From Domibacillus indicus (GTDB taxonomy: Bacteria > Bacillota > Bacilli > Bacillales > Domibacillaceae): a stretch of DNA of 64,000 bases. The stretch lies in NCBI RefSeq assembly GCF_023715895.1, contig NZ_JAMBOO010000009.1, forward strand, positions 1 to 64,000, written 5' to 3'. Positions 44,592-47,060 of this stretch are shown piece by piece. Each line of letters begins with the position of its first letter. Position 1 is the stretch's first letter. The notes below the pieces were generated by a model that was not told the DNA's origin, ran no database searches, and was given only the letters and a program-made list of their open reading frames with translations. The position numbers and the translations under genes were made by a program.

Positions 44592-44600
44592 TGCACGAAA

Positions 44601-44648
44601 AAAGCGAAAGCCTTATTTCTCCGACAGGCTTTCGCTTTCTATTTGAAT
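44601..44648. terminator. Bidirectional intrinsic terminator
   Basis: AAAGCGAAAGCCT (44601-44613) pairs with AGGCTTTCGCTTT (44636-44648). It follows ldh and overlaps the end of the convergent STAS gene. Confidence 0.85.
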
Positions 44649-45353
44649 GGAGCTGGCATAAACAAGGCCGCTGTGCCGATGTTTTTTTAAAAACGGCGCG
44701 TGGGCAGGTTTCACTCCTACAATTCGAATGTTCGCATCAAGTAAGAGCAGAATGTCAACGAGCTGGTTAAACTGCTCAATACCGGACAGTGTAATCAAAT
44801 CCACTGCTGTAAAATCGATGTACAGGTACTCATAATTCCCGTCGTAAAAACATTGTGATAATACATCTTTTGTGTGCTCCATCAGGGCGGTGTCCAGATC
44901 GCCAAACATTGGAATGAGTGCCGTCGTGCTGCTCAGCGCAATGAGCGGAGCAGAGCGCTTCTTCATTTTAATGAGCGCGGCTTCGGCTTCTTCTTTTTTT
45001 TCAAGAAGCTGAAAATCGGCTTCAGCAAGCCTCATCTGCTGCTGGTGCACCATTTTCTCCAAACGGGCGAGCCGGCGGTCAAGCCCGACACACTGCAGAT
45101 ACCCTTCATGCTCGTCCCATTGAACGGACACTGAAAAAGCTTCGGGCTTTAACCCAACAGTTAACAGAGCCAGTTCAATCGTTGTTGATTGTTCTTGCAG
45201 TTTTGCTAATTTCCGCTGGCTTCCTTCATCTACGATCGATTCCAAATTCTGCTGATTCCCGAATCGGCATTGTGCCGAGTCGGAACATTCAAGAACATTC
45301 AGCTTTCGATCTACTCGAAAAGTCGGCAGCGGCATAGACTTAAGATGCCCCAC
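44613..45353 (-). CDS. STAS-domain protein resembling stressosome RsbR paralogues
   Basis: A protein of about 246 residues. The C-terminal 115 residues are a STAS domain: LIALSSTTALIPMFGDLDTALMEHTKDVLSQC, then YEYLYIDFTAVDLITLSGIEQFNQLVDILLLLDANIRIVGVKPAHAPFL. A coiled-coil helix (RLARLEKMVHQQQMRLAEADFQLLEKKEEAEAAL) joins it to an N-terminal domain of about 90 residues that may be PAS-like. RsbR proteins have the same order of sensor, linker and STAS. The Ser/Thr usually phosphorylated by RsbT are not at obvious conserved places except T/S in LITLSGI. The GTG at 45353 is preferred because GAGGGG lies 7 nt before it; it overlaps the B12 gene by 14 bp. It is the last gene of the operon. Confidence 0.75.
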   Translation of the reverse strand: MGHLKSMPLPTFRVDRKLNVLECSDSAQCRFGNQQNLESIVDEGSQRKLAKLQEQSTTIELALLTVGLKPEAFSVSVQWDEHEGYLQCVGLDRRLARLEKMVHQQQMRLAEADFQLLEKKEEAEAALIKMKKRSAPLIALSSTTALIPMFGDLDTALMEHTKDVLSQCFYDGNYEYLYIDFTAVDLITLSGIEQFNQLVDILLLLDANIRIVGVKPAHAPFLKKHRHSGLVYASSIQIESESLSEK

Positions 45354-45990
45354 TTGCTTTCCCCTCGCTTTGATCATTCATCCAGTCAGTTAACTTTTTA
45401 TAATCCGTTATAAAAAGCGTGTTCGGCGTGCAATAAAGTGATAAATCATACATGGATAAAAGACGGCTTCCCACAATGATTTTCGGGCGGAACGGCAAGG
45501 ACTCCAATGCTTCTGCATACGATTTCAAGACCGGTACATGATACAGAATCGTGACGGATAAACAAATCACGTCCGGCTTCCACTTTTCTGCAGCAGAAAC
45601 GGCGTGTTCAAGTGGTAAATTCGCCCCCATCATCCGCGTTTTCCAGCCGTTTTCTTCAAACAGCAGCGATGCCATCCGCATGCCGAGCGTGTGCTGCTCT
45701 TCTTCTACACATAAAAACATCACTTTACGGCTGGACGTTTTTCGTTTCGCTTGTGCATGAAAACGGGAAATCATAAAATCACACGTAGCCGTTGCTAAGT
45801 GTTCATCTGCCACGGAGATATCATCCTGTTCCCACAGAGACCCAATATGCTGCATCGCCCCACCGACGATAGACTGGTAAATATCGACCGACGTCCACCC
45901 TTTTTCGCGAAGATCACATAAAAAAGCAAAGCTTGCATCCACATCGCCATCAAGCAGCAGATGGGCTAGTTTCGCTGCTTCTGTGTTCAT
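45340..45990 (-). CDS. Cobalamin-binding photoreceptor-like protein
   Basis: A protein of 216 residues with a helical B12 cap domain (residues 1-85) and a B12-binding Rossmann domain (about 88-205). The cap contains WEQDDISVADEH, which is the W-x9-EH motif that marks light-sensing adenosylcobalamin proteins such as CarH and LitR. The Rossmann domain has EEQHTLG, the E/D-x-H-x-x-G motif whose His is the lower cobalt ligand, and later SVTILYHVPVL and IIVGSRLLS. Unlike CarH it has no MerR DNA-binding domain. The start overlaps the preceding gene by 4 bp, and the STAS gene follows with overlap. It probably signals by protein contact. Confidence 0.8.
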   Translation of the reverse strand: MNTEAAKLAHLLLDGDVDASFAFLCDLREKGWTSVDIYQSIVGGAMQHIGSLWEQDDISVADEHLATATCDFMISRFHAQAKRKTSSRKVMFLCVEEEQHTLGMRMASLLFEENGWKTRMMGANLPLEHAVSAAEKWKPDVICLSVTILYHVPVLKSYAEALESLPFRPKIIVGSRLLSMYDLSLYCTPNTLFITDYKKLTDWMNDQSEGKASGAS

Positions 45991-46346
45991 TTCGCTTCCC
46001 TTCTTTCAATATCGGCTATCGCCTCTGTCAACACCGTGCGGTAAAATACCGCCTCGTCTGAACGCTCCTCTTCCAAAACATGATAGATTCGTTCAAAATT
46101 ATCGATCACATGCGCCGCTTTCATTCCACGTGAAACGAGCAGATTCGTTAACCAATTGGCATAGTCAATGAAAAACTGTCCATTTTGAAGCGTAAAAGCC
46201 GTTTTTAAATGGTGAAAATGGTGATGATTGTCTTCGCGGCATTTTACTTTCCCATACTCACCAAATCGTTCCTCAAGCTCTGGATAATCACGGTACATTC
46301 CATTCATAATTACATCAATACACTGGTCAATCCGGCTTTGATTCAT
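45987..46346 (-). CDS. Small helical protein upstream of the B12 gene, function unknown
   Basis: A predicted all-helical protein of 119 residues, which I cannot name. It contains a His-rich turn (CREDNHHHFHHLKTA) followed by FFIDYANWLTNLLVSRGM and a final helical pair. This resembles, from memory, a helical domain fused in front of B12-binding domains in other bacteria, so here it may be a separate subunit of the same sensor. I start it at 46346 since that ATG overlaps the previous stop (ATGA) and a GTGGTGG stretch is upstream; a reading to 46457 would run inside the monooxygenase gene. Its own stop overlaps the B12 gene start by 4 bp. Confidence 0.7.
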   Translation of the reverse strand: MNQSRIDQCIDVIMNGMYRDYPELEERFGEYGKVKCREDNHHHFHHLKTAFTLQNGQFFIDYANWLTNLLVSRGMKAAHVIDNFERIYHVLEEERSDEAVFYRTVLTEAIADIERREAK

Positions 46347-46651
46347 GTAGCCACCACACGATACTTTTGCACTTTCGGGACAATCGAGGCGAGCTCCTGA
46401 TCCGGGTAATTCTTTTCTAGATCGTGCACTTTTTGAAAAGCTTCGCTTGTTACCCATTTCATATAAGCCTCTTTTGATTCCCAGACGAGCTGAACGGTTA
46501 ATTCAGATGGGCGCTTTTCATTTTGAAGCAGCCCGAAAGATATGAAGCCTTCATACTCGTCCACAAGCTTGGACCGGTTTTGATAAATAGAAATGGTTTC
46601 ATCAATCTTATCCGGCGGCACGTTGACAATGGAATGAACAATATAGCTCAT
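46343..46651 (-). CDS. ABM-fold monooxygenase, possibly heme-degrading
   Basis: A ferredoxin-like alpha+beta barrel protein of 102 residues of the antibiotic-biosynthesis-monooxygenase family. The pattern SIVNVPPDKIDETISIYQNRSKLVDEYEGFISFGLLQNEKRPSELTVQLVWESKEAYMKWVTSEAFQKVH matches HmoA/IsdG-like proteins. Whether it binds heme cannot be seen. It overlaps ywbE upstream and the helical gene downstream by 4 bp each. Confidence 0.78.
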   Translation of the reverse strand: MSYIVHSIVNVPPDKIDETISIYQNRSKLVDEYEGFISFGLLQNEKRPSELTVQLVWESKEAYMKWVTSEAFQKVHDLEKNYPDQELASIVPKVQKYRVVAT

Positions 46652-46839
46652 AAAATATCACACACTCGTCCGACCTGCCCATCTTCAAGACGGACTTTAA
46701 TGCCGTGCGGATGAAAACTGGATTTTGTTAAAATGTCTTTGACCGTACCGCTTGTTTTATTGCCCGTCCGCTGGTCCTTCTTTAAAATGATGTTGACCTT
46801 CAAGCCGGGTTTAATCTCACTCCTGTTTTGTCCGTTCAT
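46648..46839 (-). CDS. ywbE: YwbE-family small protein
   Basis: A protein of 63 residues. The sequence RSEIKPGLKVNIILKKDQRTGNKTSGTVKDILTKSSFHPHGIKVRLEDGQVGRVCDIL is the conserved YwbE (DUF2196) family, found widely in Firmicutes and Bacteroidetes, with no known function. The start is the ATG at 46839, 8 nt after GAGGGG. It is the first gene of the five-gene overlapping operon that ends with the STAS protein. Confidence 0.88.
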   Translation of the reverse strand: MNGQNRSEIKPGLKVNIILKKDQRTGNKTSGTVKDILTKSSFHPHGIKVRLEDGQVGRVCDIL

Positions 46840-46938
46840 CACTCATACCCCTCTTTGTTCCAGTTATTAGTACTAGTATAAAGGTTTTTGTTTCAATAAT
46901 CGAAGAAAAACGGCTCAAACCTCCAGAAACAAAGAAAA

Positions 46939-47060
46939 GAGACAGGTTATACCTGTCTCGAAGTGTAGACAAAGTTAGAAAGCAGGCAAGCGGCTTTTCA
47001 GGAAGCATCACTTTTTAAAAAGGGCCTATAGGGAAGTCGCCCGCCGCCTTATCATCTTCT
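46939..47060. repeat. Partial copy of the terminator-nested repeat (locus 3)
   Basis: A perfect hairpin, GAGACAGGT (46939-46947) with ACCTGTCTC (46951-46959), is followed by GAAG and TGTAGACAAAG (46963-46973), the element end seen at the larger copies. Beyond it only scraps of the GC-rich module remain; TAAAAAGGGCCTATAGGGAA near 47016-47035 resembles the mirror segment at locus 4. The interval 46843-47258 has no gene that I can support. Confidence 0.6.

Follow-up and report, generated by a model that had tools for sequence, protein, structure and literature searches.

What a cobalamin-binding protein that carries no DNA-binding domain senses, and to which system it passes its signal, is the question raised by a cluster of five overlapping genes in Domibacillus indicus. 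The cluster lies on the minus strand of the 64,000-nucleotide stretch analyzed here, called the window (positions 1 to 64,000 of contig NZ_JAMBOO010000009.1, assembly GCF_023715895.1), and by frame reading it comprises ywbE, an ABM-domain gene, genes for a 119-amino-acid (aa) helical protein and a 216-aa B12 protein, and a gene for a PAS-STAS protein. The initial annotation, made from the letters alone, had pictured a B12 light sensor acting on an RsbR-like STAS protein, with the helical protein as a possible third subunit. The idea of a third subunit looks right, although the identity of the protein had been missed: judged by profile and structural model, it is a bilin-type globin, and because of this the B12 sensor becomes a split photocobilin with two likely chromophores. 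We consider it probable that the ABM, globin, B12, and PAS-STAS proteins form a split photocobilin wired to the stressosome. This proposal is based on gene order, protein families, residue conservation, a fused version of the receptor, co-inheritance of its parts, and the occurrence of the STAS version only together with RsbS.

Assignment of the B12 protein

The stand-alone B12 protein (45340..45990, minus strand, as for all features below) consists of a four-helix cap and a Rossmann B12-binding domain, matched by the Pfam families B12-binding_2 (PF02607) and B12-binding (PF02310), and is 98% identical to its counterpart in Domibacillus sp. PGB-M46. As initially annotated, it has no DNA-binding domain that is matched in Pfam or NCBIfam. 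In a PDB search, the Saccharothrix photocobilins 8j2w and 8j2x came first (E value, 4e-15), followed by a putative cobalamin-binding protein, 8jbs (1e-12), and the photocobilin domain 8j2y (3e-9). In NCBIfam, CarH led (2.4e-10) with MtgC close behind (3.8e-9), both being far below the cut-offs.

Besides, two motifs pointed out in the initial annotation were present and kept in 159 to 161 of the 161 rows of a B12 protein alignment. The window is included in these rows, two of which are the frames (90 and 125 aa) of a gene split in Bacillus taeanensis (L019), and one locus, L170 (G035), is absent from the B12 and globin row counts. The first motif, W53-x9-E63-H64 (45799..45834), is that of the adenosyl pocket and corresponds to Trp61 and Glu71-His72 of the photocobilin SasPcob, when chain indices 55 (Trp) and 65-66 (Glu-His) are set to these residues (an offset of 6). 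The second, E98-x-H100-x-x-G103 (45682..45699; E98-Q-H100), is the motif of the lower cobalt ligand, with His100 at the place of SasPcob His108. Trp53, Glu63, His64, and Glu98 were each found in 160 rows, His100 in 161, and Gly103 in 159. In SasPcob, Trp61, Glu71-His72, and His108 ligate the cobalt and stack against or hold the adenosyl group (PMC10979010), and the W-EH motif of the adenosyl pocket has been tied to light-responsive B12 domains (PMC10979010, PMC11796333). The published signature of such domains (SignatureFinder) consists of GxxW, EH, GxxH, and GxxxP (PMC11796333), of which GxxW, EH, and GxxxP, three of the four elements, occur in the window protein. We assign the B12 protein, from its sequence, to the class of adenosylcobalamin (AdoCbl) light sensors represented by CarH, and we predict that it binds AdoCbl and responds to light.

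The putative bilin-class globin and its fused form

The helical protein is 119 aa long from the ATG at 46346 (45987..46346). The possibility of a His-rich metal-binding protein was considered and rejected, as the top matches of the single-sequence PDB search fell on His-rich, tag-like stretches; with a profile, matches of this type dropped to E values near 1, and phycocyanin and photocobilins led. The profile, built from 59 relatives, matched phycocyanin alpha at 0.0015 and photocobilins at 0.037. The Phycobilisome family (PF00502) matched 26 of these 59 relatives (E values up to 1; best, 1.6e-5) and not the window protein itself, and other families matched fewer of them (MetOD1, 16, best 0.012; ARMC9, 5, best 6e-6). 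An AlphaFold model with a predicted local distance difference test (pLDDT) score of 96.6 and a predicted template modeling (pTM) score of 0.89 showed five helices. The first 13 Foldseek matches to this model were phycobiliproteins, SasPcob, or smURFP, with template modeling (TM) scores of 0.72 to 0.77; the photocobilin 8j2x scored 0.77, and a smURFP chain lower in the list scored 0.80.

In the profile alignment, Asp39 of the motif C36-x-E-D39 (46230..46241) stands at the place of the Asp of the phycocyanin C-x-R-D motif and of SasPcob Asp270, Cys36 stands at the phycobiliprotein attachment place, and Trp65 (46152..46154) corresponds to SasPcob Trp296, which contacts the D ring of biliverdin. 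Both Asp270 and Trp296 are biliverdin contacts in SasPcob (PMC10979010). Asp39 and Trp65 were kept at all 113 distinct globin places, represented by 114 alignment rows (104 separate and 10 fused; G496 stands twice). Cys36 was kept in 68 of the 104 separate rows and in none of the 10 fused rows. His42 and His43, in the long second helix, were invariant in the 59-member alignment, and since no other His was invariant, no proximal heme ligand is apparent. Sequence and model together identify the small protein as a bilin-class (phycobiliprotein/photoglobin-type) globin, for which bilin binding is predicted.

Strong evidence that the separate globin and B12 genes form one functional unit is provided by a fused version. 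The globin was found in 58 of 398 genomes of the class, and 22 of these belong to the Paenibacillus-like family f50, where the globins lie in frames of 357 to 391 aa; in all 10 f50 loci fetched, globin and B12 domain were one protein. A frame of 560 to 626 aa followed the fused gene within 25 bp or overlapped it in 10 of 10 loci, with an H-x-x-R-T-P kinase box in 9, and the sole such frame scanned by Pfam (L187) showed the HisKA, HATPase, receiver, and Hpt domains of a hybrid histidine kinase. A further arrangement was found in family f53, in which the two loci read have ABM and globin genes beside a CheB-CheR-PAS-kinase gene and, facing them, genes for B12 and a short partner; this is perhaps a light-dependent kinase output. 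In four f53 loci (L201, L202, L207, and L208), the ABM-globin pair lies directly before a 1215- to 1229-aa CheB-CheR-PAS-histidine kinase fusion (one of them checked by Pfam) and faces a B12 gene that has a short PAS partner.

Co-inheritance of the globin and ABM genes

The ABM protein (46343..46651; PF03992, 1.1e-13) is IsdG/IsdI/HmuQ-like: its profile matched 8avh, IsdI, and IsdG, and HmuQ was its best NCBIfam match, far below the cut-off. We surveyed 129 loci of the order, in 117 of its 173 B12-positive genomes. These loci were drawn from the best matches listed, so that weak relatives are under-represented, and for L022 to L050 the flanks were only about 1.5 kb long. Both ABM and globin were present in 73 loci, neither in 55, and globin only in 1 (L044); no locus had ABM without globin, either in the survey or outside it. 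The position of the pair varied: in some loci it preceded the B12 gene, and in others it followed the gene for a kinase-type partner or lay on the other strand. Globin presence changed at least 13 times on the B12 tree, a quick tree with several long branches whose support was estimated by the Shimodaira-Hasegawa-like approximate likelihood ratio test (SH-aLRT); the two genes thus seem to be gained or lost together, as a cassette. The identity of the globin, its biliverdin contacts, the fusion in f50, and the co-inheritance of ABM lead us to regard globin and B12 protein as a putative split photocobilin that usually comes with ABM. As for ABM itself, our guess from its sequence is a partner of the globin that degrades heme, and so supplies the bilin, or that handles the bilin. 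Seven places with an ABM domain were found in the window's genome.

The output protein and its variants

The last protein of the cluster (44613..45353, 246 aa from a GTG start) has a YtvA-like layout of PAS, helix, and STAS. Its PAS-like N-terminal domain (residues 8-90; 45084..45332) was recognized through PAS matches in Foldseek and is common to partners of the STAS, kinase, and short-tail types, and its STAS domain (residues 134-233; 44655..44954) was found by Pfam (PF01740, 7.8e-7), profile, and Foldseek. The model (pLDDT, 81.7; pTM, 0.46) showed a PAS fold, a long helix, and a STAS domain, and its best Foldseek match was full-length YtvA (2mwg; E value, 2e-10), followed by RsbR, RsbS, and PAS domains. 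Over the whole chain, the YtvA match reached a TM score of only 0.41, and thus the placement of the domains either is not shared with YtvA or is not predicted. The profile matched YtvA (3.7e-20), RsbR (4e-15), RsbS (4e-10), and SpoIIAA (3e-6). Among 63 relatives, Pfam recognized STAS in 62 and PAS in only 4 or 5. No invariant Cys, which would make the PAS domain a LOV flavin sensor, was seen in this domain. Accordingly, the description of the STAS partner as RsbR-like stands for the sensor-linker-STAS layout but not for the sensor, which is a PAS fold and not the RsbR globin, nor for the closest match, which is YtvA. By sequence and model, the output protein has an RsbR/YtvA-class STAS domain after sensor and helix and is nearest to YtvA; its assembly into stressosomes is predicted.

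In the 129 loci, the partner was of the STAS type in 90 (91 with L048, plus the split L061), a histidine kinase in 9, and a protein with a short tail in 22, and 6 loci had none; a PAS-bearing protein was the next gene in 123 (L048 and L061 included). L048 was counted as STAS on account of a 298-aa STAS-type frame, the script having scored no partner and the longest frame starting far upstream. In L061, the PAS and STAS parts lie in two frames (132 and 122 aa), which, like the split B12 gene of L019, may reflect sequencing error or decay. B12 and STAS genes are thus neighbors far beyond Domibacillus, and the refuting condition set in the initial annotation, that these genes should not be neighbors in related genomes, did not hold. 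The N-terminal PAS part of the partner appears to be constant, and its output is, by sequence, a STAS domain, a histidine kinase, or a short tail.

One kinase-type partner checked by Pfam contained HisKA (7e-8) and HATPase (7e-23), and the kinase partners formed one clade on the B12 tree (SH-aLRT, 97). These histidine kinases, each encoded behind a B12 gene and with an N-terminal PAS part like that of the STAS partners, are those of L074, L081, L084, L091, L098, L101, L117, L118, and L135. Short partners (e.g., L085, L096, L097, L099, L100, L102, L106, and L107, as well as L017, L018, and L020) have about 180 to 220 aa, with PAS and a helical-looking tail; the very short partners of L136 and L155 are within the 22. 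The tail resembles a kinase dimerization region by eye only, and three short partners scanned had no Pfam family match. No globin was nearby in any of the 22 short-partner loci of the survey. Short partners were also considered as a mark of genomes without a stressosome, an idea that was discarded since all 22 were in RsbS-positive genomes. Four loci of genus g65 (L045, L050, L055, and L066) have ABM, globin, and B12 genes without an adjoining PAS partner, and another B12-PAS-STAS copy lies elsewhere in the genome in at least three of the four cases (G165, G191, and G082).

Association of the STAS output with RsbS

The window's genome has an rsbR-rsbS-rsbT-rsbU-rsbV-rsbW-sigB-rsbX operon, as read from the frames, and RsbS was found by search as well. 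Of 397 genomes of the order, 310 had RsbS and 173 had the B12 gene; RsbS occurred in 169 of the 173 B12-positive genomes versus 141 of the 224 B12-negative ones (Fisher's P = 1e-19, kinship ignored). Each of the four B12-positive genomes without RsbS (G063, G153, G178, and G204) belongs to family f20 and has a partner of the kinase type. All 91 STAS-type loci (90 and L048; also L061) are in RsbS-positive genomes, kinship again being ignored. Outside the order, the globin-bearing genomes of f49 (14) and f58 (1) are RsbS-positive, and their 15 loci all encode PAS-STAS. RsbS had no match at 1e-10 in the 22 f50 and 6 f53 genomes. A profile search found the PAS-STAS partner in none of the 32 RsbS-lacking genomes (22 f50, 6 f53, and 4 f20), and found the PAS part alone in 10 of them, in f20 within the kinase and in f53 in short frames. 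A separate STAS-type match, in frames of 520 to 529 aa, is present in each of the four f20 genomes. Since STAS versions occurred only with RsbS, and in 0 of 32 genomes lacking it, a stressosome output is supported, and we read the system as a single predicted light-sensing head with exchangeable outputs, which would be STAS where a stressosome exists.

Of the three f80 genomes, two had RsbS-like matches of 42 to 44% and the third had a weak match; the fetched f80 loci showed no PAS partner. The window's genome has 29 STAS places matched by PF01740 (contigs C33, C91, C93-C99, and others; several on C33). Many of them lie in frames of 260 to 300 aa resembling RsbR paralogues, a rich set of possible stressosome sensors.

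Proposed mechanism

From these data, we infer the chromophores, the photochemistry, the docking, the role of ABM, and the direction of the response as follows. The B12 protein would hold AdoCbl between its helical cap and Rossmann fold, with His100 as the lower ligand and Trp53 and Glu63-His64 around the adenosyl group. The globin would hold a linear tetrapyrrole, with Asp39 and Trp65 as contacts and perhaps also a covalent link to Cys36, and ABM would supply or load this bilin. The globin would dock on the B12 protein like the fused globin of photocobilins, thereby widening the absorption to red. Most likely, green light would break AdoCbl directly, or red light would do so via the bilin of the docked globin; in photocobilins, red light is reported to act through the bilin and green light through AdoCbl (PMC10979010). 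Loss of AdoCbl is a possible alternative trigger of the change in the B12-globin unit. The altered unit may then act on the PAS domain by protein contact, and the STAS domain, sitting in the stressosome beside RsbR paralogues in a YtvA-like manner, would let light shift the release of RsbT and the activity of sigma-B. The fuller reading, namely, a light receptor of separate subunits with two chromophores (cobalamin and a bilin, bound covalently or not), a phycobiliprotein-like globin in nonphotosynthetic Bacilli, in most cases a dedicated IsdG-fold protein that makes or loads the bilin, and a shared PAS adaptor for exchangeable outputs (STAS with RsbS and kinases without), is advanced tentatively, as something that may quite possibly hold.

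Several observations weigh against this proposal. With regard to the output, no sigma-B-type promoter was found upstream of the window operon, and the idea of such a promoter was dropped; a loose sigma-B site before the operon in 10 of the 129 relatives, versus about 1.6 expected from plain letter shuffles, is not pressed here. The B12 gene is absent from 141 RsbS-positive genomes, the module occurs in only three lineages that lack RsbS (f20, f50, and f53), 5 of the 9 kinase-type loci are in RsbS-positive genomes too, and the genome counts for RsbS, B12, and output type ignore kinship. The phospho-acceptor threonines of RsbR we take to be residues 171 and 205. At the Thr171 place, the relatives mostly have Asp (42 of 63; Asn, 11; Thr, 4), so that regulation would not be exactly RsbR-like; at the Thr205 place, they have Thr (25), Ser (13), or Asn (13), and in the alignment with YtvA the first place is Asn and the second Ser. 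With regard to the globin, the protein alone had no Pfam family match and nothing informative in NCBIfam or the single-sequence PDB search, and Pfam alone is insufficient for its identity because other families match as well: the unrelated, chance-like matches to ARMC9 are as good as the best to PF00502, in fewer members. The Foldseek E values were 0.03 to 0.3 among the 50 matches listed, none being below 0.001, and heme globins appeared further down (rank 14; TM, 0.58). Outside the order survey, globins without ABM in the fetched stretch were found in L019, G407, G496, and 9 of the 10 fused loci. With regard to the B12 protein, 1y80 and methionine synthases outrank CarH in the PDB search, and Glu54 stands at the place of the second His ligand of CarH, which we take to be His132, beside Trp131; the photoproduct must then differ from that of CarH. 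Finally, the GxxH element of the light signature is missing from the window protein, in which Glu97 occupies the Gly place; Gly was found there in 63 of the 161 rows. This failure is mild, because in CtMerR the Gly of GxxH bonds via the main chain (PMC11796333).

Alternative explanations

The alternative that survives best is that the B12 protein by itself, without a bilin, senses green light or the AdoCbl level and reports to the stressosome, with globin and ABM as accessories that bind heme, fatty acid, or oxidized tetrapyrrole. Indeed, 28 of the 90 STAS-type loci keep the B12 and PAS-STAS genes and have neither globin nor ABM, which makes the globin/ABM part optional. The chemistry of ABM is also in its favor: of the active-site triad of IsdG, presumably Asn, Trp, and His, the ABM proteins keep His76 in 58 of 58 and Trp66 in 49 of 58 (Tyr in 9), but Ser7 replaces the Asn in 57, with 1 gap, which renders heme cleavage doubtful, and a search of the window's genome gave no canonical heme oxygenase (PF01126). 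The invariant His42 and His43 of the globin could ligate a metal or heme, although no proximal heme ligand is apparent. This explanation does not account for biliverdin contacts kept at 113 of 113 places or for a fused form that resembles known biliverdin-binding photocobilins, and we consider it unlikely, if well worth keeping in mind.

It is less probable still that the system works in the dark as a cobalamin or redox/oxygen sensor, in which AdoCbl occupancy or the heme products of ABM report the metabolic state to PAS-STAS. All but 1 of the 161 rows have the W-EH motif of light-responsive B12 domains, the globin that accompanies the B12 protein belongs to the bilin class, and YtvA, a STAS protein of the same layout, senses light; all three speak for a light receptor. 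To our knowledge, on the other hand, Domibacillus is not phototrophic, the GxxH element is missing, and a separate MerR-type, CarH/LitR-like gene of the same genome could already read light. The latter gene (L114:1417-2334; G000:C115) encodes a MerR-type B12 regulator of 305 aa, CarH/LitR-like by reading, and the window's genome may have two AdoCbl light receptors. A corrinoid methyl-transfer protein with accidental neighbors, suggested by the closeness of MtgC to CarH in NCBIfam and by the rank of 1y80 (a predicted cobalamin protein; 4e-7) and methionine synthases (1e-5) above CarH (6e-4) in the PDB search, was rejected as highly improbable, given that photocobilins came first in that search, 160 of 161 rows retain W-x9-EH, the operon has no methyltransferase gene, and a PAS-bearing protein comes next in 123 of 129 loci.

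Relation to known systems

The preferred reading, a split photocobilin with a stressosome output, has precedents in its parts. The photocobilins SasPcob (8J2W/8J2X) and AbDPcob (8J2Y) both have the W-EH and E-x-H motifs and a five-helix globin with the Asp and Trp contacts (PMC10979010). Their globin is fused to the B12 domain, as in the f50 relatives, whereas the two are separate genes in the window; they have no Cys at the phycobiliprotein attachment place, whereas the globins here often do; and here an ABM gene is attached and a PAS-STAS protein with a gene of its own is the output. For photocobilins, action on a partner enzyme through protein contact has been reported, and STAS and SpoIIE partners have been suggested for SasPcob from an interaction network (PMC10979010). 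The BBAG globins are similar in being stand-alone globins of the photoglobin class, with Cys-containing motifs, beside a B12 protein and a heme-degrading gene, but they are from other groups (the words "bacill" and "firmicutes" are absent from the main text) and come with HO-type oxygenases, whereas an IsdG fold and STAS are found here (PMC10151467).

YtvA and the RsbR paralogues have in common with the output protein a PAS-fold domain, a helix, and an RsbR/YtvA-class STAS domain. YtvA, however, is a LOV-STAS blue-light input, whereas the PAS domain here has no invariant Cys and the light-absorbing part would be provided in trans by B12 protein and globin. CarH and LitR share the class of AdoCbl domain, but CarH, unlike the window protein, also carries a fused MerR DNA-binding domain, and its presumed second His is not kept. 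The pairing of B12 and PAS proteins has a parallel in AerR, a stand-alone B12 photoreceptor acting on the PAS-domain protein CrtJ/PpsR, which is a DNA-binding repressor and not a STAS protein; PpsR PAS domains were among the Foldseek matches of the output protein.

Thus, photocobilins, BBAG globins with B12 proteins, and LOV-STAS proteins are already known, and what appears to be new, on present sequence evidence, is a photocobilin variant that is split and has a stressosome-type output. Our literature search found no split photocobilin, Bacillales phycobiliprotein-like globin, ABM-globin cassette, or Bacilli B12-linked STAS protein, although it did not cover Schneider et al. 2022 on photoglobins, which may touch on some of these; no paper joining a B12-binding domain, a STAS domain, and Bacillus was found either. 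What is known of light input to general stress control in Bacilli mainly concerns the blue-light LOV protein YtvA, and red-light effects on sigma-B have been reported, with an RsbP-dependent pathway in B. subtilis (PMC12627116). If our proposal is true, 173 of the 397 sampled genomes of the order carry a B12-based light receptor, with a STAS output in most loci looked at (91 of 129) and a phycobiliprotein-like globin in 74 of 129, in bacteria not regarded as bilin users. This would be a previously unrecognized green/red light input into sigma-B across a large part of the order. It would also allow a direct experiment on signal uptake by the stressosome in trans and provide split, exchangeable green/red parts for optogenetics.

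Other features of the operon

The five overlapping genes and their joints were confirmed by frame reading as initially annotated: three ATGA overlaps of 4 bp are real (46648-46651, 46343-46346, and 45987-45990), and the B12 and STAS genes overlap by 14 bp with the GTG start. An alternative start of the PAS-STAS gene, an in-frame ATG at 45377, would give 254 aa and an overlap of 38 bp. Among relatives, an overlap of 14 bp was the commonest value (31 of 90 STAS loci), and 38 bp occurred in 8; this count uses the first possible start codon, a rule that scores Domibacillus itself as 38 bp.

ywbE (46648..46842; DUF2196, PF09962, 1.6e-32) is the first gene of the local transcription unit. Its inclusion in the operon agrees with the overlaps, but its role as a part of the sensor, a candidate we rejected, does not hold: among the loci looked at, it adjoins the module only in Domibacillus (8 loci, which are the same four genomes held twice), so that ywbE is probably a lineage-specific neighbor outside the sensor module. 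The operon likely ends at an intrinsic terminator (44598..44635), a 9-bp inverted repeat across the STAS stop codon followed by T6. This repeat was read by eye; the terminator scan, with its loop limit of 3 to 8, omits it because the loop is longer. In the region, the scan gave 7 sites versus 3.0 expected, among them a terminator-like hairpin upstream of ywbE (46939..46959) with 9 pairs and a T-rich tail.

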